Assembly: GCA_020248905.1 (NCBI GenBank)
Contig: JADCGR010000051.1
Location: 1-64,000 of the forward strand
Source of the DNA: Curvibacter sp.
GTDB taxonomy: Bacteria > Pseudomonadota > Gammaproteobacteria > Burkholderiales > Burkholderiaceae_C
Reading direction: 5' to 3'
Length of the DNA: 64,000 nt
The position numbers and the translations under genes are program-made. The notes under the pieces were generated by a model that ran no database searches, had not been told where the DNA came from, and saw only the letters and a program-made list of their open reading frames with translations. Positions 3,442 through 41,202 of the stretch are shown one piece after another (position 1 is the first letter of the stretch; the number at the start of each line of letters is the position of its first letter).

Positions 3442-4265
3442 GCGCGTCCTTGCGTACCGGGCGCGGTGCGCTCTGGCCAGGCGGAGGCGTTGACCAGCGC
3501 CCGGTAGGCGTGCCAGCTAGCGTGGCCGAGCAGCGGCATCACCACGATGAGGCCGAGAAGAGCGGTCAACAGGCCCAGCAGCGTCAGGGCCATGATGAGC
3601 GCGGCCCATAGCGCCATGGGTGCTGGATTGCCGAGCACGGTTTCCCAGCTGGTGACCACCGCCTGCAGCACGCTGACGCGTCGGTCTAGCAGCAGCGGGA
3701 TCGCAATGGCGCTGGACGCAAAGATCGGTGCAGCCAGCAGGCCGCCTAGCGCCAGCCAGATCTCGAAAAGCCAATTTTCTCGCGCCAGCACGACATGCCG
3801 CAGGAAATCGAGCGGTTGCAGGATGGGCGTGGGCGAAAGCAGGGTGATGAGCGCGGCCGAGGTCAGCACCCAGCCCGTTCCCGCCATACCCAGCAGAAGC
3901 CCGAAGCGCACCAGCCGCCAGTCCTTGCCGTCGGTATGGCTGCCATGGCGGCGCCAGCTCAGCCAGGTCTGCGGCACCAGGCGCCAGGAGAGCGGCTCGC
4001 CGCGCTCCGCCGCCTGGCTCAGCGCGTACAGGCTCGTGGCCAGTACCGGGCCGACGACGAGCATGCCGGAAAAGGCCCCCGCCAGAAGCCAGAACTGCTG
4101 ATGGGCGACCAGCAGCAGCAGCTGGCCAAAGACGGTCAGGACGAGGCCGTGAGCCAGGCTAACCCAGCCGCAGCGACCCATGTCACGCCACCCCAGCGCC
4201 AGCCAGTGCAGGGGTTGCTGCAGTCGGACGGTACGGACGACGGGCGCCGTGGGGACGGGCTTCAT
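3438..4265 (-). CDS. DUF2189 family multi-spanning membrane protein
   Basis: A 275-residue protein with about six transmembrane helices, preceded by a short cytoplasmic N-terminus (VRLQQPLHWLALGWRDM) that matches the start of the DUF2189 family. The conserved block GPVLATSLYALSQAAERGEP follows the second helix pair. No catalytic residues can be recognised. It overlaps the DUF2788 gene by 4 bp and lies 17 bp after the end of the Spy-like gene on the same strand, so the three may be one transcript. Function unknown. Confidence 0.8.
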   Translation of the reverse strand: MKPVPTAPVVRTVRLQQPLHWLALGWRDMGRCGWVSLAHGLVLTVFGQLLLLVAHQQFWLLAGAFSGMLVVGPVLATSLYALSQAAERGEPLSWRLVPQTWLSWRRHGSHTDGKDWRLVRFGLLLGMAGTGWVLTSAALITLLSPTPILQPLDFLRHVVLARENWLFEIWLALGGLLAAPIFASSAIAIPLLLDRRVSVLQAVVTSWETVLGNPAPMALWAALIMALTLLGLLTALLGLIVVMPLLGHASWHAYRALVNASAWPERTAPGTQGRA

Positions 4266-4880: not shown

Positions 4881-5762
4881 TCAGTCCTTCCCCAGCCGTC
4901 CTGCCTGAAAGTCCTCTACCGCCTGAATTAGCTGCTCCCGTGTGTTCATCACGAAGGGCCCGTACTGGGCGATGGGCTCGTTGAGTGGAATGCCAGCGAT
5001 CAGCAGCGCCCGAGCGGGCTCGTCCCCGGGCAGGCCCTGCAGCAGCACGCCGTCGCCACGGTTGTCGAGGACGGCCATGCGGTGGCGCGCAACGACGGCA
5101 TCAGCGATCCCTATGCAGCCGCGATAGGTGTAGGTGAAAGCGTTGTAGTGCGCCGCCAGGGGCTGACGGAACGTGGCGCCGCCTGCCGGGAAATGCAGGT
5201 CGAGGTAGAGGGGAGCGGTTGGCCATTGCTGCGCGGGCCGGGCCACGGCGCCGTTCACGCCGTGGCTGTGGCCGGCAATCACGCGCACCGTCACGCCTTC
5301 GGGGGTGGTGAACTCGGGGATCTCGGTGCTTTGGATGGCGCGGTAGCCCGGTGTGCACATCTTGTCGCGACCCGGGAGGTTCAGCCATAGCTGGAAGCCC
5401 TCCATCATGCCGGCTTGCTGCTCTGGCAGCTCGCTGTGGATCAGGCCCCGCCCCGCAGTCATCCATTGCACGCCGCCGCTGGTGAGCAGGCCCTCGTTGC
5501 CTGCGCTGTCGCGATGGCGCATGCGCCCGGCAATCATGTAGGTCACGGTCTCGAAGCCGCGGTGCGGGTGATCCGGGAAGCCCGCGATGTAATCGTTTGG
5601 GTCGTCGCTGGCGAAGTTGTCCAGCATCAGAAATGGATCGAGCCGGCGTTGTAGCTCATGGGTCAGCACGCGCGTGAGTTTGACGCCCGCGCCGTCCGTC
5701 GCGGGCTGTCCGGTCACGAGGCGCTCTACGCGGCGTGGCGCTTCAATGGAAGTGAAGTCCAT
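4881..5762 (-). CDS. Pirin family protein
   Basis: A 293-residue bicupin. The N-terminal cupin carries the expected metal ligands: DHPHRGFETVTYM (His65, His67) and GLIHSE (His109, Glu111). Some bacterial pirins are quercetin dioxygenases, others bind regulators or enzymes; the substrate cannot be read from sequence. The C-terminal cupin (about 170-275) is complete. The ATG at 5762 is chosen because the conserved family start (IEAPRRVERLV) begins six residues later; the frame stays open upstream to 6053 but that part reads as low-complexity Arg/Pro and is not pirin-like. Confidence 0.88.
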   Translation of the reverse strand: MDFTSIEAPRRVERLVTGQPATDGAGVKLTRVLTHELQRRLDPFLMLDNFASDDPNDYIAGFPDHPHRGFETVTYMIAGRMRHRDSAGNEGLLTSGGVQWMTAGRGLIHSELPEQQAGMMEGFQLWLNLPGRDKMCTPGYRAIQSTEIPEFTTPEGVTVRVIAGHSHGVNGAVARPAQQWPTAPLYLDLHFPAGGATFRQPLAAHYNAFTYTYRGCIGIADAVVARHRMAVLDNRGDGVLLQGLPGDEPARALLIAGIPLNEPIAQYGPFVMNTREQLIQAVEDFQAGRLGKD

Positions 5763-7094: not shown

Positions 7095-7123
7095 CTGAAC
7101 CTTGCCATCGTGGCAAGGTTCAG
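7095..7123 (+). promoter_or_regulatory. CueR-type operator of the copA promoter
   Basis: A perfect 29-bp palindrome: the arm CTGAACCTTGCCA (7095-7107), a TCG centre, and the arm TGGCAAGGTTCAG (7111-7123). TGAACC can serve as -35 and CAGAAT (7121-7126) as -10 with a 19-bp spacer, the geometry used by CueR/MerR activators. Transcription would then start near 7132-7134, which affects the choice of the copA start codon. Confidence 0.72.
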
Positions 7124-9581: not shown

Positions 9582-10484
9582 TCAAGCTGGTTGTGCTGCG
9601 AGGATTCTGCGTAGCACTTTACGGGCTAAAAGCTCCACGTGTTGGCCAGCTGCGGACAGAGGCCTGTCGCGATTCCAAACCAAGGAAATCGGGTAGCGAA
9701 AAGGTGACCGCAGCGGCAAGAACGTTAGCGTTGCGTCTCGCTCTGAAGCCGCCGTCAGCTCATCTACAACCGCGATTCCCGCCCCGGCCCGGACCAATGC
9801 GAGTCCAACTCGCGCAATGCGGACGGTGGGACCGCTCCGAACCTCAACCCCCGCTTCTTGAAGCAAAGTGTCCATCGTCCTACCTTGAATCGTAGATTGA
9901 TCGAACTTGATCAGGGACTGCCCTGAGAGATCGCGCAAAGAGAGCGTTGAACGGCTTGTGAGCAGGTGTCCGGCAGGCACGGCAACGACGAGTCTGGCTC
10001 GGCCCAGCAACCTCGTCCTCAGGCTGGGATGTTCCGGTTCAATGAGCGCTATCCCAAGGTCGGCCTGGTGCGTCAACAGCTCTTGAGTCAGCACACGCAG
10101 CGGCAAAACGTCTAGTGTGATGCTGAGGGCAGGTTTGTCTCGACCCAACATTGCAACCACTTCGGGCACCGCCGCCAAGCCAGCGCTTGGACTGCAGACG
10201 ATCCGCAGTGACCGTCCCTCGCCAGTCTTCAGAGACTTTGCAACACCCAGGACAGTCTCGATCCCGCCGTAAATCTTGCGGACTTCCTCATACAGCACGC
10301 GAGCATCCTGGGTTGGAAGGATGCCTGTTCCTTGTCGTTCGAACAAGGGAACGTCAAGCGATGACTGAAGATGCTTGATTAATCGGCTTACCGCAGGCGC
10401 GGATACGTGAAGCAGCTGCGCGGCTCCACCGATGGATCCCGTCAGCATGACCGCTCGGAACACCTCCATTTGGCGCAGGTTCAT
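9582..10484 (-). CDS. LysR-type transcriptional regulator
   Basis: A 300-residue LysR protein: winged helix at residues 1-60 (MEVFRAVMLTGSIGGAAQLL, then SAPAVSRLIKHLQ) and a complete substrate-binding domain (about 90-295). It is divergent from the Bug-isochorismatase-AroE-like genes and most likely controls them. The 87-bp spacer is very AT-rich and contains the dyad GTTAAA (10497-10502) / TTTAAC (10523-10528), a candidate operator. Further ATG and TTG starts lie just upstream at 10487 and 10493. The 228 bp before copA's end hold no recognisable gene. Confidence 0.88.
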   Translation of the reverse strand: MNLRQMEVFRAVMLTGSIGGAAQLLHVSAPAVSRLIKHLQSSLDVPLFERQGTGILPTQDARVLYEEVRKIYGGIETVLGVAKSLKTGEGRSLRIVCSPSAGLAAVPEVVAMLGRDKPALSITLDVLPLRVLTQELLTHQADLGIALIEPEHPSLRTRLLGRARLVVAVPAGHLLTSRSTLSLRDLSGQSLIKFDQSTIQGRTMDTLLQEAGVEVRSGPTVRIARVGLALVRAGAGIAVVDELTAASERDATLTFLPLRSPFRYPISLVWNRDRPLSAAGQHVELLARKVLRRILAAQPA

Positions 10485-21227: not shown

Positions 21228-22627
21228 ACCTGCCGGGCATGAGCCGCGCCTCGCTGCGCACGCGACTCGTGCGCAATGTGCTGCTGCCCTTGGCCATCAC
21301 CTGGCTGCTCGGCACTGCGCTGACCGTCACCGTGGCGTATTACTTTGCCCAGAAAGCTTTCGACCGCGCGCTGCTCGACGACGCCTATGCCCTGGCCTCA
21401 CGCGTGCGGGCCCAGCCCGAAGGCCTGGCGCTGGAGTTGTCCAGCCGCGAGATGAGCACTGTGCTTTTCGACCAGACCGAGAGTATTTATTTCGTCGTGC
21501 GCCGTGAAGATGGCTCCGTTATGGCCGGGCATCCGGGCCTGCGCGCGGAGTTGCCGCTCAGCTCGGCCACCATCCGCTTTTCCGAGATCTTTTATCAGGG
21601 CCGCGCGCTACGCGCGGTCAGCGTGCGTCAGGAGGAACCCGATGACTTCGTCGTCACGGTGGCGCAGACCACGCGTAGTCGCAAGGCGTTGCTGCGCGAT
21701 GTACTTTTCTATTCGGTCGCACCGCAATTGACGCTGCTGATCCTTCTGGCCGTGTGGTTGCGCGGTGCGATCGGCCAGGAAGTGCAGCCACTCAGTGATC
21801 TGCAGAGCTCTGTGGAGCGCCGCGATGCGCGCGATCTGGCGCCCGTGCCCGTGTACGCGGCGTCGCGCGAGATCGAGCAGCTTGGCGTGGCCATCAATGC
21901 GCTGCTGGAGCGGCTGGGTCACAGCCTGCAGGCCCAGCGCGAGTTCTCGGGCAATGTGGCGCATGAGCTGCGCACGCCGCTGGCCGGCATCCGTGCGCTC
22001 GCGGAGTACGGGCTGGCGCAAGGCGATCCTGCGGTCTGGCGCGAGCAACTGCAGCGCATCGGTGTGAGTGAGGCGCGCGCCAGCCGCCTGGTGGAGCAGC
22101 TGCTGGCGCTGGCGCTGGCCGATGAGGCCGAGACCGGCGTGAAGAACGAGGCGCTGGCCCTGGACGAACTGGTCCGCGAGACCGTACTGCGCTATTTGCC
22201 CCGGGCCGACGCGGCTGGCGTAGACCTGGGCGTACAGGGGCCGGATGAGCCGGTCTGGGTGATCGGCAACGCGGCGCTGCTGGAGGGCGTGCTGGGCAAT
22301 CTGCTGGACAACGCCCTGCGCTACGCCCGCCCGCTTGACGGCCAGTCTGGTTCGGTGACGGTGGAGCTCGCGCACGAGGCCGAGGGCGTGCGCCTGTCCG
22401 TCATCGACAATGGTCCGGGTCTTGACGTTGCGCAACGCGGCCACCTGCTGCTGCGCGGCGTGCGCGGACTGCATGCCGAGCGACTGGGGCCGGGTGCGGG
22501 CCTGGGCCTGGCCATCGTCCGAAAGTTCGCCGACTTGATGGACGGGCGCTTCCAGCTTGATGAAGGGCCCGCAGGCCGCGGCCTGCGGGCCAGCTTGCTG
22601 TTGCGGGAGTCTGCGCCGGCTGCCTGA
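21224..22627 (+). CDS. Sensor histidine kinase, TctE-like
   Basis: A 467-residue membrane kinase. A transmembrane helix at about 18-40, an extracytoplasmic sensor of the 2CSK_N type found in TctE (FDQTESIYFVVRREDGSVMAGH), a second helix near 165-185, the phosphoacceptor FSGNVAHELRTPL (His247), and an ATPase domain with NLLDNALRYA, DNGPGLD and GAGLGLAIV. Alternative starts are TTG 21224 (overlapping the regulator stop, with GGAGAAGG just upstream) and ATG 21239. Although TctE relatives sense citrate-type ligands, the neighbourhood suggests metal sensing. Confidence 0.9.
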   Translation: MNLPGMSRASLRTRLVRNVLLPLAITWLLGTALTVTVAYYFAQKAFDRALLDDAYALASRVRAQPEGLALELSSREMSTVLFDQTESIYFVVRREDGSVMAGHPGLRAELPLSSATIRFSEIFYQGRALRAVSVRQEEPDDFVVTVAQTTRSRKALLRDVLFYSVAPQLTLLILLAVWLRGAIGQEVQPLSDLQSSVERRDARDLAPVPVYAASREIEQLGVAINALLERLGHSLQAQREFSGNVAHELRTPLAGIRALAEYGLAQGDPAVWREQLQRIGVSEARASRLVEQLLALALADEAETGVKNEALALDELVRETVLRYLPRADAAGVDLGVQGPDEPVWVIGNAALLEGVLGNLLDNALRYARPLDGQSGSVTVELAHEAEGVRLSVIDNGPGLDVAQRGHLLLRGVRGLHAERLGPGAGLGLAIVRKFADLMDGRFQLDEGPAGRGLRASLLLRESAPAA

Positions 22628-35403: not shown

Positions 35404-37380
35404 ATGCTCTACCCACAAGAATTTGATGTGATCGTCGTTGGCGGCGGCCATGCCGGTACGGAAGCCGCATTGGCGGCTGCCCGCATGGGCGCGCGCACTC
35501 TGCTGCTTACGCACAACATTGAGACTCTGGGCCAGATGAGCTGCAACCCGTCGATTGGCGGCATCGGCAAGGGGCACCTGGTGAAAGAGGTGGATGCGCT
35601 GGGTGGCGCCATGGCGATCGCGACCGACGAGGGCGGCATCCAGTTCCGCATCCTCAACAACTCCAAGGGCCCGGCCGTGCGTGCCACCCGCGCCCAGGCT
35701 GATCGCATTCTTTACAAGGCGGCCATCCGGCGACGCCTGGAGAACCAGCCCCATCTCTGGCTGTTGCAGCAGGCTGTGGATGATCTGATGGTGGAGGGCG
35801 ACGGTGACGGGGCGAGGGTGGTTGGCGCCGTGACCCAGGTGGGCATCCGCATTCGCAGCCGCACCGTGGTGCTGACGGCGGGCACCTTCCTGGACGGCAA
35901 GATCCACGTGGGCCTGAACAATTACTCTGCCGGCCGTGCGGGCGATCCGCCGGCCGTTAGCCTGTCGGCCCGTCTGAAGGAGCTCAAGTTGCCGCAGGGC
36001 CGCCTCAAGACCGGCACACCGCCGCGCATTGACGGACGCAGCATCGATTTTTCGAAGTGCACCGAGCAGCCGGGCGACGGCATGCCCGGCGGGCTGAACG
36101 AGGGTGCGGTGCCGGTGTTCAGCTTCATGGGCAGTGCCGCCATGCACCCGCAGCAGATGGCCTGCTGGATCACGCATACGAACGAGCGCACTCACGAGAT
36201 CATCCGCGCCGGTTTTCACCGCAGCCCCATGTTCACGGGCAGGATCGAAGGCGTGGGCCCGCGCTACTGCCCCAGCGTGGAGGACAAGATCAACCGCTTT
36301 GCCGACAAGGACAGCCACCAGATCTTCCTGGAGCCAGAGGGCCTGACGACGCACGAGTACTACCCCAACGGCATCTCGACTAGCCTGCCATTTGACATCC
36401 AGTACGCGCTGGTGCGGAGCATGAAGGGGCTGGAGAACGCCCACATCCTGCGGCCCGGCTACGCCATCGAGTACGACTACTTCGACCCGCGCTCGCTCAA
36501 GGGCAGCTTTGAGACCAAACAGATCAGCGGCCTGTTCTTCGCCGGCCAGATCAACGGCACCACTGGTTATGAAGAGGCGGCGGCCCAGGGCCTGTTCGCC
36601 GGTATTAACGCCGCGCTGCGGTGTCGCGGCGAAGGACCATGGCAGCCGCGCCGCGACGAGGCCTATCTGGGCGTGCTGGTCGACGACCTCACCACCCAGG
36701 GCGTGACCGAGCCCTACCGCATGTTCACCAGCCGGGCTGAGTTCCGCCTGCAGCTGCGCGAGGACAACGCCGACCTGCGCTTGACGGAGACTGGCCGAAA
36801 ACTGGGCCTGGTGGACGACGCGCGCTGGGACGTCTTCTGCCGCAAGCACGATGCTGTGGCAGTCGAGACCGAGCGCCTCAAGGCGACCTGGGTGAACCCC
36901 CGCATCCTGTCGGCGGCGGAGGCCGAGCGGGTGCTAGGCACCACGATCGAGCGCGAGTACTGCCTGTTCGATTTGCTGCGCCGTCCCGATGTGAGCTATG
37001 CCGGCCTGATGTCACTGGAAGGTGGCAAATACGCCAGCCCTAATGTTTCACGTGAAACCCTGGGTGCGCTGGCCGTTAGCGTGGTGGAGCAGATCGAGAT
37101 CGTGGCCAAGTATTCGGGCTATATCGACCGCCAAAAGGACGAGGTCGAACGCGCCGCGCACTACGAAAACCTCAAGCTCCCGGCCGATCTGGACTACATG
37201 GCTGTGACGGCCCTGTCCATCGAAGCCCGGCAGAAGCTCCAGAAGCATCGGCCCGAAACCCTGGGCCAGGCTTCGCGCATCTCGGGCATCACCCCGGCGA
37301 GCATCTCGCTGTTGCTGATTCACTTGAAAAAGGGCGGCTTGCGCGGTTTCGCCAAGGGCGAAGAGACTGCGGCGGCATGA
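35404..37380 (+). CDS. mnmG: tRNA uridine 5-carboxymethylaminomethyl modification enzyme MnmG (GidA)
   Basis: A 658-residue FAD enzyme that, with MnmE, modifies the wobble U34 of some tRNAs. Dinucleotide loop [17 protein letters not shown] (about 11-27), the GidA signatures [20 protein letters not shown] and [21 protein letters not shown], and a complete C-terminal MnmE-binding helical domain. The ATG at 35404 begins the conserved [15 protein letters not shown]; the open frame extends upstream to 35131 but is not family-like. A parS site lies in codons for NVSRET near 37050. It overlaps rsmG by 4 bp. Confidence 0.96.
37044..37059. promoter_or_regulatory. parS: parS centromere site 1 (inside mnmG)
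   Basis: TGTTTCACGTGAAACC matches the bacterial chromosome parS consensus TGTTNCACGTGAAACA at all but the last base; the central 14 bp GTTTCACGTGAAAC are a perfect palindrome. ParB, encoded 3 kb away, should load here. The site lies within the mnmG coding sequence. Confidence 0.9.
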
Positions 37381-38213
37381 CGGCTGCGTTGCTTGAGGCC
37401 CTGAGATCTGGGGCGGCCGAGCTTGAGCTGCGGCTGTCGGATGCCCAGATCGGCCAGCTGCTGGACTACCTGGCGCTGATCCAGAAGTGGAACAAGGTCT
37501 ACAACCTCACGGCCTTACGTGACCCGGCCGAGATGCTGACCCACCATCTGCTCGACAGTCTGGCCGTCATTGGCCCGCTGCGCCGGCAACTCCGGGGCCA
37601 CCAGCCGGCGGACGGGCTGGGCTTGCGTTTGCTGGATGTGGGCTCCGGCGCCGGACTGCCCGGTGTGGTCATTGCCATCTGCTGCCCGGACGTGGCGGTG
37701 AGCTGCGTGGACACCGTGGCTAAAAAGGTAAGCTTCATCCAGCAGGCCGCCATCAGCCTGAAGCTGCCCAATCTCAAGGGTCTGCATGCTCGGGTGGAAA
37801 ACTTGGACGATCACTACGACGTGGTCTGCTCCCGGGCCTTCGCTTCCCTCGCCGACTTCACCGCATGGTCTCGTTCGGCCCTGGCGCCAGCGGGGGTCTG
37901 GCTGGCGATGAAAGCGAAGCACCCTACGGATGAGCTGGCGGCATTGCCGGCGGGGGTGGAGGTGTTTCACGTGGAACAGCTTTCTGTTCCGGGTCTGGAC
38001 GCACAGAGATGTCTGGTCTGGCTTCGGGCTTCTTCTCGCCAAGTGCCGCAGGTAAAACCATCGCCCCAACGAAACGTTCCACGTGAAACAAAACCAAGGC
38101 CGAAACCCAGGAGTTCCTGCCTTACACTGCACCCCCTGTTCCCGAAGAATTCCCCATGTTTGGCGTTGCCGATTACGGTGCGTTTGTCGTCACCATCATC
38201 ATCTTTTTGCTGA
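37377..38213 (+). CDS. rsmG: 16S rRNA (guanine-N7) methyltransferase RsmG (GidB) with a long tail
   Basis: A 278-residue enzyme that methylates G527 of 16S rRNA. Motifs include [17 protein letters not shown], the SAM loop [13 protein letters not shown] and [10 protein letters not shown]. Normal RsmG proteins end after about 210-220 residues, here at about the [20 protein letters not shown] block; about 65 further residues are Pro/Arg/Ser-rich and overlap the lysE gene by 58 bp. Two parS sites lie in the last 250 bp. The tail is probably an unselected read-through. The ATGA overlap couples it to mnmG. Confidence 0.92.
37964..37979. promoter_or_regulatory. parS: parS centromere site 2 (inside rsmG)
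   Basis: TGTTTCACGTGGAACA, identical to the parS consensus except for one base in the right arm, which breaks the palindrome at one position. Located in codons of the last conserved part of RsmG (FHVEQ). Confidence 0.85.
38075..38090. promoter_or_regulatory. parS: parS centromere site 3 (in the rsmG tail)
   Basis: CGTTCCACGTGAAACA matches the parS consensus except for the first base and a C at the permitted variable position. It lies 111 bp from site 2 in the non-conserved tail of rsmG, encoding NVPRET, and 80 bp before the lysE start. Confidence 0.85.
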
Positions 38214-38794: not shown

Positions 38795-39583
38795 ATGGCG
38801 AAGATATTCTGCGTGGCCAACCAGAAGGGGGGCGTGGGCAAGACCACGACGACCGTGAACCTCGCGGCGGGGCTGGCAAAGGTGGGGCAGCGCGTGCTCA
38901 TGGTGGACCTGGATCCCCAGGGCAATGCCACCATGGGCTCGGGCGTGGACAAGCGCCAGCTCAAGCTCAGCCTGTATGACGTGTTGCTTGAGTCGGCCAC
39001 CATCGCCGAGGCCCGCGTTCGTAGCGAAAAGTTGATCGAAGGCGGCTGCGGCTATGACATTCTGGGCGCCAACCGCGAGCTCGCTGGCGCCGAGGTGGAG
39101 CTGGTGGATGTGGAGCGGCGCGAGAAACGCCTCAAGCATGCGCTGGCGCAGGTGAACGACGAATACGACTTCGTACTCATCGACTGCCCGCCCAGTCTTT
39201 CCATGCTCACGCTCAATGGCCTGTGCAGCGCGCACGGAGTCATCGTGCCCATGCAGTGCGAGTACTTCGCGCTTGAGGGACTGACTGATCTGGTCAACAC
39301 GATCAAGCAGGTGCATGCCAACCTCAATCCCGACCTCGAAATCATCGGCCTGCTGCGCGTCATGTTTGACCCGCGCGTCACCCTGCAGGCGCAGGTCAGC
39401 GACCAGCTCAAGGCCCACTTCGGCGACAAGGTGTTCGACGCCGTGATCCCGCGCAACGTGCGCCTCGCCGAGGCGCCGAGCTACGGCCAGCCCGGCGTGG
39501 TCTTCGACCCCGCTTCCAAGGGTGCGCAGTCCTTCATTGCCTTCGCCGAGGAGATGGTTGCCCGCCTCAAGAAGATGAAGTAG
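38795..39583 (+). CDS. parA: Chromosome-partitioning ATPase ParA (Soj)
   Basis: A 262-residue P-loop ATPase with the deviant Walker A KGGVGKTTTTVN (signature Lys11, Lys16), Walker A' VDLDPQGNAT and Walker B VLIDCPPSL. No N-terminal DNA-binding domain, so it is the chromosomal Soj type. Together with ParB on parS it moves the origin region. AGGGACGAG precedes the ATG. A small hydrolase gene separates it from parB. Confidence 0.96.
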   Translation: MAKIFCVANQKGGVGKTTTTVNLAAGLAKVGQRVLMVDLDPQGNATMGSGVDKRQLKLSLYDVLLESATIAEARVRSEKLIEGGCGYDILGANRELAGAEVELVDVERREKRLKHALAQVNDEYDFVLIDCPPSLSMLTLNGLCSAHGVIVPMQCEYFALEGLTDLVNTIKQVHANLNPDLEIIGLLRVMFDPRVTLQAQVSDQLKAHFGDKVFDAVIPRNVRLAEAPSYGQPGVVFDPASKGAQSFIAFAEEMVARLKKMK

Positions 39584-40182: not shown

Positions 40183-41202
40183 ATGGTGACCAAGAAACCC
40201 AAGGGACTCGGCCGCGGACTCGAAGCCCTGCTCGGCCCCAAGGTCGACGACACCCGTGCCGAAGTGGCGGCACTGAACGAAGCGCGTGAGGGCCACGCCA
40301 CGGGCAGCCTGAAGCTCGACGATCTTGTGCCCGGCACGTACCAGCCGCGCACGCGCATGGATGAAGGCGCGCTCTACGAGCTGGCCGAATCCATCAAGGC
40401 CCAGGGCATCATGCAACCAATACTTGTTCGGCGTCTGGACGCCGAACAAGCGCGGTTGCACCGGCAAAAAGTAATTGCTCAGGGGCCCTCCCCTGAGCAA
40501 GTTCGCGCGCAAGCAAACTATGATGAGCCGCTCTACGAGATCATTGCTGGTGAGCGCCGCTTCCGAGCGGCAAAGCTCGCCGGCCTGGACAGCGTGCCCG
40601 TGCTCGTGCGCGACGTGCCCAACGAGGCCGCCGCCGCGATGGCGCTCATTGAGAACATCCAGCGCGAAGACCTCAACCCGCTCGAAGAGGCCCAGGGCCT
40701 GCAGCGCTTGATCCGCGAATTCGGCCTCACGCATGAACAGGCTGCGCAGGCTGTGGGCCGATCGCGCAGCGCCGCGTCCAACCTGTTGCGTCTGCTCAAT
40801 CTGGCCGAGCACGCGCAGGCCATGCTCATGGCTGGTGACATCGACATGGGCCACGCGCGCGCCTTGCTGGCGCTGGACCGCGCGACGCAGATCACCGCAG
40901 CCAACCAGATCACCGCGAAAAAGATGTCGGTGCGCGAGGCCGAGAGCCTGGTGAAGAAACTCGGGGCCGAATTTAACCTGGCCCCGCAGAAGCCGGGCAA
41001 GGAAAAGTCGCGCGACCTCAAGCGGGTGGAAGAAGAACTGTCAGACCTGCTCACCGCCGAGGTCGAGGTGCGCGTCAAGAAGCGCGTCAAGCGCCACGGT
41101 CGCGTTGAAGAGATGGGCGAGCTCAGCATCCAGTTCGGCTCGCTTGACGAACTCAATGGGCTGATCGACCGGCTGCGGCGTAGTGGTGGCAGCGGAAGCT
41201 GA
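40183..41202 (+). CDS. parB: Chromosome-partitioning protein ParB (Spo0J) with an in-frame insertion
   Basis: A 339-residue parS-binding CTPase. N-terminal KPKGLGRGLEALLG, then QPILVR (about 78-83), the CTP-binding GERRFRA (123-129), ENIQREDLNPLEEA, a helix-turn-helix (LTHEQAAQAVGRSRSAASN) and a C-terminal dimer domain ending LIDRLRRS. In other ParB proteins the segments corresponding to LVR and YEIIAGERR are only a few residues apart; here about 30 residues (84-116) intervene. The DNA for that insertion consists largely of two perfect hairpins (see repeats). The frame stays open, so the protein is likely functional. Start 40183 begins MVTKKPKG. Confidence 0.95.
   Translation: MVTKKPKGLGRGLEALLGPKVDDTRAEVAALNEAREGHATGSLKLDDLVPGTYQPRTRMDEGALYELAESIKAQGIMQPILVRRLDAEQARLHRQKVIAQGPSPEQVRAQANYDEPLYEIIAGERRFRAAKLAGLDSVPVLVRDVPNEAAAAMALIENIQREDLNPLEEAQGLQRLIREFGLTHEQAAQAVGRSRSAASNLLRLLNLAEHAQAMLMAGDIDMGHARALLALDRATQITAANQITAKKMSVREAESLVKKLGAEFNLAPQKPGKEKSRDLKRVEEELSDLLTAEVEVRVKKRVKRHGRVEEMGELSIQFGSLDELNGLIDRLRRSGGSGS
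40412..40460. repeat. Long near-perfect palindrome inside parB (first hairpin)
   Basis: Core arms CTTGTTCGGCGTC (40423-40435) and GACGCCGAACAAG (40438-40450) are perfect 13-bp complements with a 2-base loop. Outside them TGCAACC (40412-40418) pairs with GGTTGCA (40454-40460), giving 20 paired bases per side interrupted by a small internal loop. It encodes residues around LVRRLDAEQARLH of ParB. Confidence 0.95.
40475..40500. repeat. Second perfect hairpin inside parB
   Basis: TTGCTCAGGGG (40475-40485) and CCCCTGAGCAA (40490-40500) are perfect 11-bp complements around CCCT. It begins 14 bp after the first palindrome ends and encodes part of the VIAQGPSPEQV segment of the ParB insertion. Confidence 0.95.

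Follow-up and report, generated by a model that had tools for sequence, protein, structure and literature searches.

Palindromic DNA inside protein genes has been described in several settings. Rickettsia palindromic elements (RPEs) lie in frame within protein genes (PMC10969869) and are said to lose their repeat identity over time (PMC6649704). As presented in PMC6649704, coding palindromes in the mitochondria of Nematomorpha encode protein on both arms, stay matched and are gained or lost among species, with template switching or conversion proposed; the same account mentions palindromic elements in Magnusiomyces mitochondrial genes that are skipped by translational bypassing. REP palindromes, tagged with GTAG or CGTC, are short hairpins that sometimes occur inside coding regions and reach high copy numbers (PMC3733652).

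Here we describe a palindromic insert in the parB gene of Curvibacter sp., located in a stretch of 64,000 nucleotides that we call the window. A literature search by title and abstract, with subscription papers mostly outside its scope, returned nothing on palindromes in parB or on this element. With a probability of roughly 0.55, we read the insert as a palindromic loop cassette of parB, some 120 bp long, that passes from species to species through short-tract recombination, is translated and then decays.

The parB loop and its two hairpins

The window parB gene (40183..41202, forward strand) encodes a chromosome-partition protein of 339 aa in an open frame starting with ATG at 40183, with matches to ParB_N, HTH_ParB, ParB_C and TIGR00180. 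By sequence comparison, its product matches solved ParB/Spo0J chains, and in the closest of these, 7bnk_A, the matched stretches lie three residues apart at the loop point (query 84/117, chain 49/53). A parA-like gene lies upstream (38795..39583, forward strand), which we take from its translated sequence to be parA. What we take to be the parS pattern is matched at 37963..37978 (forward strand) and, with one mismatch each, at 37044-37059 and 38075-38090. ParB_N, HTH and C-terminal dimer domains, together with the nearby parA-like gene and parS-like sites, mark the gene as a chromosomal parB. Its relatives bear Comamonadaceae names, and the lineage proposed in the sequence-only reading, Alcaligenaceae, was wrong.

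Between ILVR and YEI the protein carries a long loop of 34 aa (40432..40533, forward strand), which presumably lies beside the CTP site. All 26 genomes of the genus sample were searched for this loop; it was read directly in 18 of them as 10 aa, and the roughly 30 intervening residues reported earlier are indeed an extra segment. For two further genomes (G009, G021) a short loop was deduced from split matches, while five congeners (G012, G015, G020, G022, G023) have long loops without the window hairpins, the one in G022 (L009) holding a different hairpin of 8 bp. Outside the loop, the window ParB is 92% identical to that of the short-loop genome G013 over residues 1-86 and 96% identical over residues 118-337.

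The insert amounts to about 24 extra aa, and its DNA is two perfect hairpins. Extended hairpin 1 (40412..40460, forward strand) has perfect inner arms of 13+13 bp spanning 40423-40450 (40423-40435 / 40438-40450, loop TG) and an outer stem of 7+7 bp (TGCAACC at 40412-40418, GGTTGCA at 40454-40460), the two being separated by an internal loop AATA/CGC. Hairpin 2 (40475..40500, forward strand) is a perfect stem of 11+11 bp (40475-40485 / 40490-40500) closed by CCCT, with the 16-nt core CAGGGGCCCTCCCCTG at 40480-40495. Both palindromes, and the open frame running through them, were confirmed as first reported. They are among the four longest perfect hairpins of the window (stems of 11 bp or more, loops no longer than 8), and in five simulated windows (second-order Markov) the longest perfect hairpin reached at most 11 bp. 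When synonymous codons were resampled with the protein fixed and codon usage taken from seven window stretches (1776 codons), hairpin 1 was perfect in none of 400,000 draws (12 of 13 pairs in 14 draws) and hairpin 2 in two of 400,000. The codons singled out earlier as unusual are so in the same seven stretches (ATA 7%, CTT 8%, GTT 5%, GTA 2%, ATT 11%), and the rare CTT and GTT occur in the insert because their wobble T is the pairing partner of the second base, A, of CAA and GAA in the right arm. Elsewhere in the window, a 756-codon open frame has near one of its ends a perfect hairpin of 13+13 bp with a loop of 3 bases (7095-7123), and a 508-codon open frame has a perfect 26-bp palindrome towards its end (22566-22591).

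Distribution of the insert, with its proposed exchange and decay

Long loops are common at this parB site in the family: 87 of 208 distinct ParB loops exceed 14 aa. Most are non-palindromic, with a median z of 0.3 against synonymous nulls (60 draws per row; the 90 rows include the duplicates L239/L293 and L294, the second contig of G352). The carriers' palindromes reach z values of 3.4-10.3 against synonymous nulls; L294 has 2.1 compared with 4.7 for L157, and two non-carrier rows, L090 and L071, score 3.3 and 3.0. The sequence-only reading held that same-length loops without palindromes in most relatives would make this an ordinary loop, and the outcome is mixed: there are many such loops, five of them in the same genus, but two-hairpin inserts occur in at least five other genera. 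Separately, the long loops of L160, L161 and L170 (genus g75, gene offset 293) hold a parS-like palindrome, TGTTCCACGTGGAACA, running through VPRG codons with 0-1 mismatches, and near versions of it occur in the loops of L165 and L167.

Two hairpins at the same place in parB were found in L041, L042, L066, L067, L157, L191 and L293, and more weakly in L054. The loop region has perfect 11-13 bp stems in L001 (the window), L041 (G083, g59), L067, L042 (G308, g109), L066 and L191 (G253, g135), and counterparts of hairpin 1 occur in L041, L042, L066, L067 and L157. The last of these (G352, g55) has a 10-bp stem and, at the same place as hairpin 2, a hairpin of other letters, whereas in L293 (G188, g164) a stem of 14 bp is built from that copy's own codons, and the hairpin-2 core is that of the window. 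The exact 18-mer GCAGGGGCCCTCCCCTGC occurs at least four times among the matches listed from 399 family genomes, each time at the parB position (G308, G083, G253, G188). The search for similar inserts scored two candidates per genome, so that further copies could be missed, and matched 48 genomes: eight matches were tied to parB (G000, G035, G083, G188, G223, G253, G308, G352), and the other 40 were partial matches of 19-46 nt, five of which were viewed as alignments. Two contigs of G352, C45 and C80 (L238, L157), both carry parB with slightly different loops, perhaps from two strains in one assembly.

The arms of these copies covary, and both lie within the coding frame. Across ten aligned copies, hand-chosen with the imperfect L002 and L054 retained and with the structure taken from L067, 88.0% of cells were paired, compared with 33-50% in slid controls. 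Changes on both sides affected 14 of 33 pairs (29 cells), which none of 500 shuffles matched, although related rows can beat such shuffles; on one of the five measures, the count of further pair types, 11 of the 500 shuffles did as well. Between the window and L067 there is one double change (T-A to G-C), one side of which alters an amino acid (D to A).

A quick ParB tree built without the loop and without a mixture model comprised 205 rows (118 short, 80 long and 7 carriers labelled by hand, with L157 and L294 left out for their cut frames). Loop class changed between long and short at least 26 times on this tree, and the seven carriers required seven changes. Short loops characterise the rows closest to the window (G013, G017), to L066 and to L042 (G370); L067 adjoins G264, whose 19-aa loop differs, and L041, L191 and L293 have only distant neighbours, also short-looped. 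In the pairs window/G017, L067/L063 and L399/L231, the 24-nt left arm is identical at 15, 15 and 16 positions, compared with 56, 59 and 57 of the adjoining 60 nt upstream, 52, 53 and 51 of the next 60 nt upstream, and 53, 56 and 56 of the adjoining 60 nt downstream. Third positions of the left arm agree at only 1-4 of 10 in seven pairs, as against fractions of 0.62-0.88 in the C-terminal flank. From this drop in identity, the changed tract starts near the end of the palindrome and takes in conserved host codons. We place the putative exchanged tract at 40414..40536 (forward strand), from the QPILVRR codons to the PLY codons, where the window differs from short-loop congeners and is 72 nt longer. 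Since the host codons QPILVRR are rewritten, more than a plain insertion is involved. The short-loop L408 has an arm identical to those of L402, L042 and L401 at 22-23 of 24 positions; it keeps the carriers' arm, so that swap left the arm in place, and the easier interpretation of L408 is that it lost the loop through exchange. We infer exchange from such patterns, no donor or moment of transfer having been seen.

The genus of G308, which includes the genome of L066 (Acidovorax sp.), was examined in 47 genomes; the insert was matched in 11, of which G848 and G831 matched only in the arm of a short loop. Both hairpins are kept in L400-L402 and L042 (Acidovorax). A single mismatch interrupts hairpin 1 in L399 and likewise in L403, where hairpin 2 is also shortened. 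L404-L406 have lost much of both hairpins and keep the peptide RRL.DEQA.LRRQERA.QGPSPA; such likeness of the peptide in palindrome-free copies suggests that the insert is translated. Among L400, L401, L402 and L042, 36-38 of 40 third positions are alike in the loop, compared with fractions of 0.73-0.87 in the C-terminal flank. Between L400 and L405 the agreement is 0.87 in the flank but only 27 of 40 third positions in the loop, and between L403 and L404 it is 0.95 and 33 of 40. L399, the fifth palindromic Acidovorax copy, showed no discordance with L400-L402 and L042 (loop 32-33 of 40, flank 0.75-0.81). In a DNA tree of 26 rows, in which 10 of 23 inner branches are weak, the states are mixed with eight changes, and the perfect L400 sits among the imperfect L405 and L406. 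The loop peptide looks like the product of the QPILVRR codons copied in inverted orientation, from which we infer that the palindrome probably came first and decayed later.

Competing explanations

In the exchange of a parB loop cassette that we favour, the cassette would code for the last part of a strand and for an extended turn in the N-terminal domain. It would pass from one species to another through homologous replacement of short tracts within parB, eased by the strongly conserved codons on either side. Copying templated by the hairpins (template switching) might keep its arms matched or restore them; the cassette would be translated as a surface extension at little cost, and where unrenewed it would decay into the non-palindromic long loops widespread in the family. 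Several points stand against this. On the left, the three swaps start at almost the same point, where the palindrome ends, which is tidier than expected of random recombination tracts; the likeness of silent sites in the palindrome could come from constraint and not transfer, and the covariation could have arisen through independent formation. Nor does exchange from parB to parB account for a hairpin-2 core in the rpmB (L28) leader of G013 and G017.

That leader core bears on mobility. In G013 (L292 743-768, contig C8), the rpmB leader has about 29 extra nt containing TCGAACAGGGGCCCTCCCCTGTTCGA; its 11-bp stem differs from that of parB hairpin 2, while the 16-nt core and the CCCT loop are the same. 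The G017 version (L330) differs at one core position and at one position next to the stem. The insert is absent from the other 21 of the leaders aligned (23 of the 26 genus genomes), three of which (L345, L349, L350) have other extra bases there. Within the 26 genus genomes, the 14-nt core AGGGGCCCTCCCCT occurs only in the window parB and the rpmB leader. The leader insert hints at a second site of a mobile palindrome or else at a rare coincidence. A low-copy selfish palindrome family of Comamonadaceae, homing to one parB codon position across genera, renewed from arm to arm, translated, occasionally landing elsewhere as in the rpmB leader, and giving rise to the family's long ParB loops through repeated gain and decay, is a doubtful reading as a whole.

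We regard as unlikely a mobile palindromic element of RPE or REP type, with a strong preference for the parB site and low copy number, for which the rpmB leader would be a second landing site. The similar inserts at one codon position in several genera, the left edge that is sharp at the palindrome end in three pairs, and the leader insert all fit such an element; the rewriting of host codons, which are not merely split, does not. The rpmB site is variable in other congeners too, and the change there is no clean insertion. Nor did searches for further copies favour it. The dispersed selfish element proposed in the sequence-only reading did not hold up: in a search of ten genomes including the window's own, nothing outside parB rose above chance, and parB was the best match in nine. 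In the tenth, G223, the best match to the insert query had an E value of 0.55, and that genome's own weak parB copy was unmatched by the query. In the window's own genome, a pattern search (3 mismatches) and BLAST found parB and otherwise weak matches, of which the best, 19 nt exact (E 0.009, L034), was rejected as a dispersed repeat as it is not a hairpin. Plasmid and phage collections gave only one match of 27 nt and four of 46 nt, at chance level (E 0.2), and the window's own 146 nt had no match in the plasmid collection. Among 399 genomes of the order, a sample that includes 12 of the family, only that of the window has the hairpin-2 16-mer core; the core also occurs in five IMG/VR stretches in unrelated contexts, which we take as chance or convergent occurrences. 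One phage-like contig (L325, minus strand) has three repeat copies with the 16-mer core (3601-3616, 4998-5013, 10006-10021) in an otherwise unrelated context. The window's own genome (789,611 bases, window included) has 38 strong hairpins with stems of 11 bp or more; on inspection by eye, those lying outside parB do not contain the hairpin-2 core. Sixteen of the 38 lie in open frames of at least 250 codons without a T-run, such frames being no proof of coding, and four of six of these frames compared with Pfam were matched. Of the earlier proposal of a palindromic element inserted and tolerated as protein, a recent, tolerated palindromic insert is supported by short-loop congeners, similar inserts in other genera and a peptide kept without the palindrome; the dispersed element and the plain insertion are not supported.

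Independent fold-back (template-switch) duplications, in which the QPILVRR codons were copied back inverted in each lineage and the right arm derives from the local left arm, seem less probable still. The upstream codons are repeated in inverted form in the right arm, with host-specific variants, as in L293 (CGATCCTGGTTCGT / ACGAACCAGGATCG) and L191 (CCTTGTGCGCCC / GGGCGCACAAGG). However, the spacer and hairpin-2 core are common to the main group across genera and the left-arm codons are unlike those of the carriers' own close relatives; therefore the main-group copies, at least, are one family.

Very unlikely, in our judgement, is a selected RNA or DNA structure within parB, acting in translation, in mRNA decay or as a protein-binding palindrome. 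The compensatory changes and the strong predicted RNA fold of the insert (-52.6 kcal/mol, z -5.7) would agree with it, but the nearest relatives lack the hairpins, the structure was lost between the near relatives L403 and L404, and the four Rfam matches at window positions 40200-40800 all fell under the gathering score. An ordinary variable loop with palindromes by chance is practically negligible, common as palindrome-free long loops are, given the synonymous resampling and the recurrence with covariation in other genera.

Comparison with known systems

If the exchange of a decaying parB cassette is true, it would be a route to new protein segments, in which palindromic DNA enters an important gene and is translated, the DNA signature is lost and the peptide stays. 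The genus of G308 has perfect, slightly imperfect, palindrome-free and short-loop states together, so that gain, decay and loss would be datable and testable there. The locus also bears on what keeps coding inverted repeats perfect, a question left open for Nematomorpha mitochondria in the account of PMC6649704.

Like RPEs, here compared by description, the parB insert is palindromic and lies in frame in a protein gene, and copies without the palindrome retain the peptide. RPEs form many copies of about 150 bp in unrelated genes, whereas the parB insert occupies one site with a net gain of 72 nt, in Comamonadaceae, and many dispersed copies in one genome were not seen in the ten genomes searched. 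Similarly, it shares with REP palindromes its short hairpins in a coding region, and CGTC is present inside stem 1 (by eye), but REPs are of high copy number and the parB insert has no second copy in these ten genomes. The palindromic elements of Magnusiomyces also lie in protein genes; they are untranslated, however, whereas the persistence of the parB peptide suggests translation. The Nematomorpha palindromes resemble the parB palindrome in that the arms are coding and matched and the occurrence is patchy among species. Theirs measure up to 284 bp and lie in many mitochondrial genes (PMC6649704), and one insert common to several genera at one site, a feature of parB, is not among the properties told for Nematomorpha in the part of that source drawn on here.
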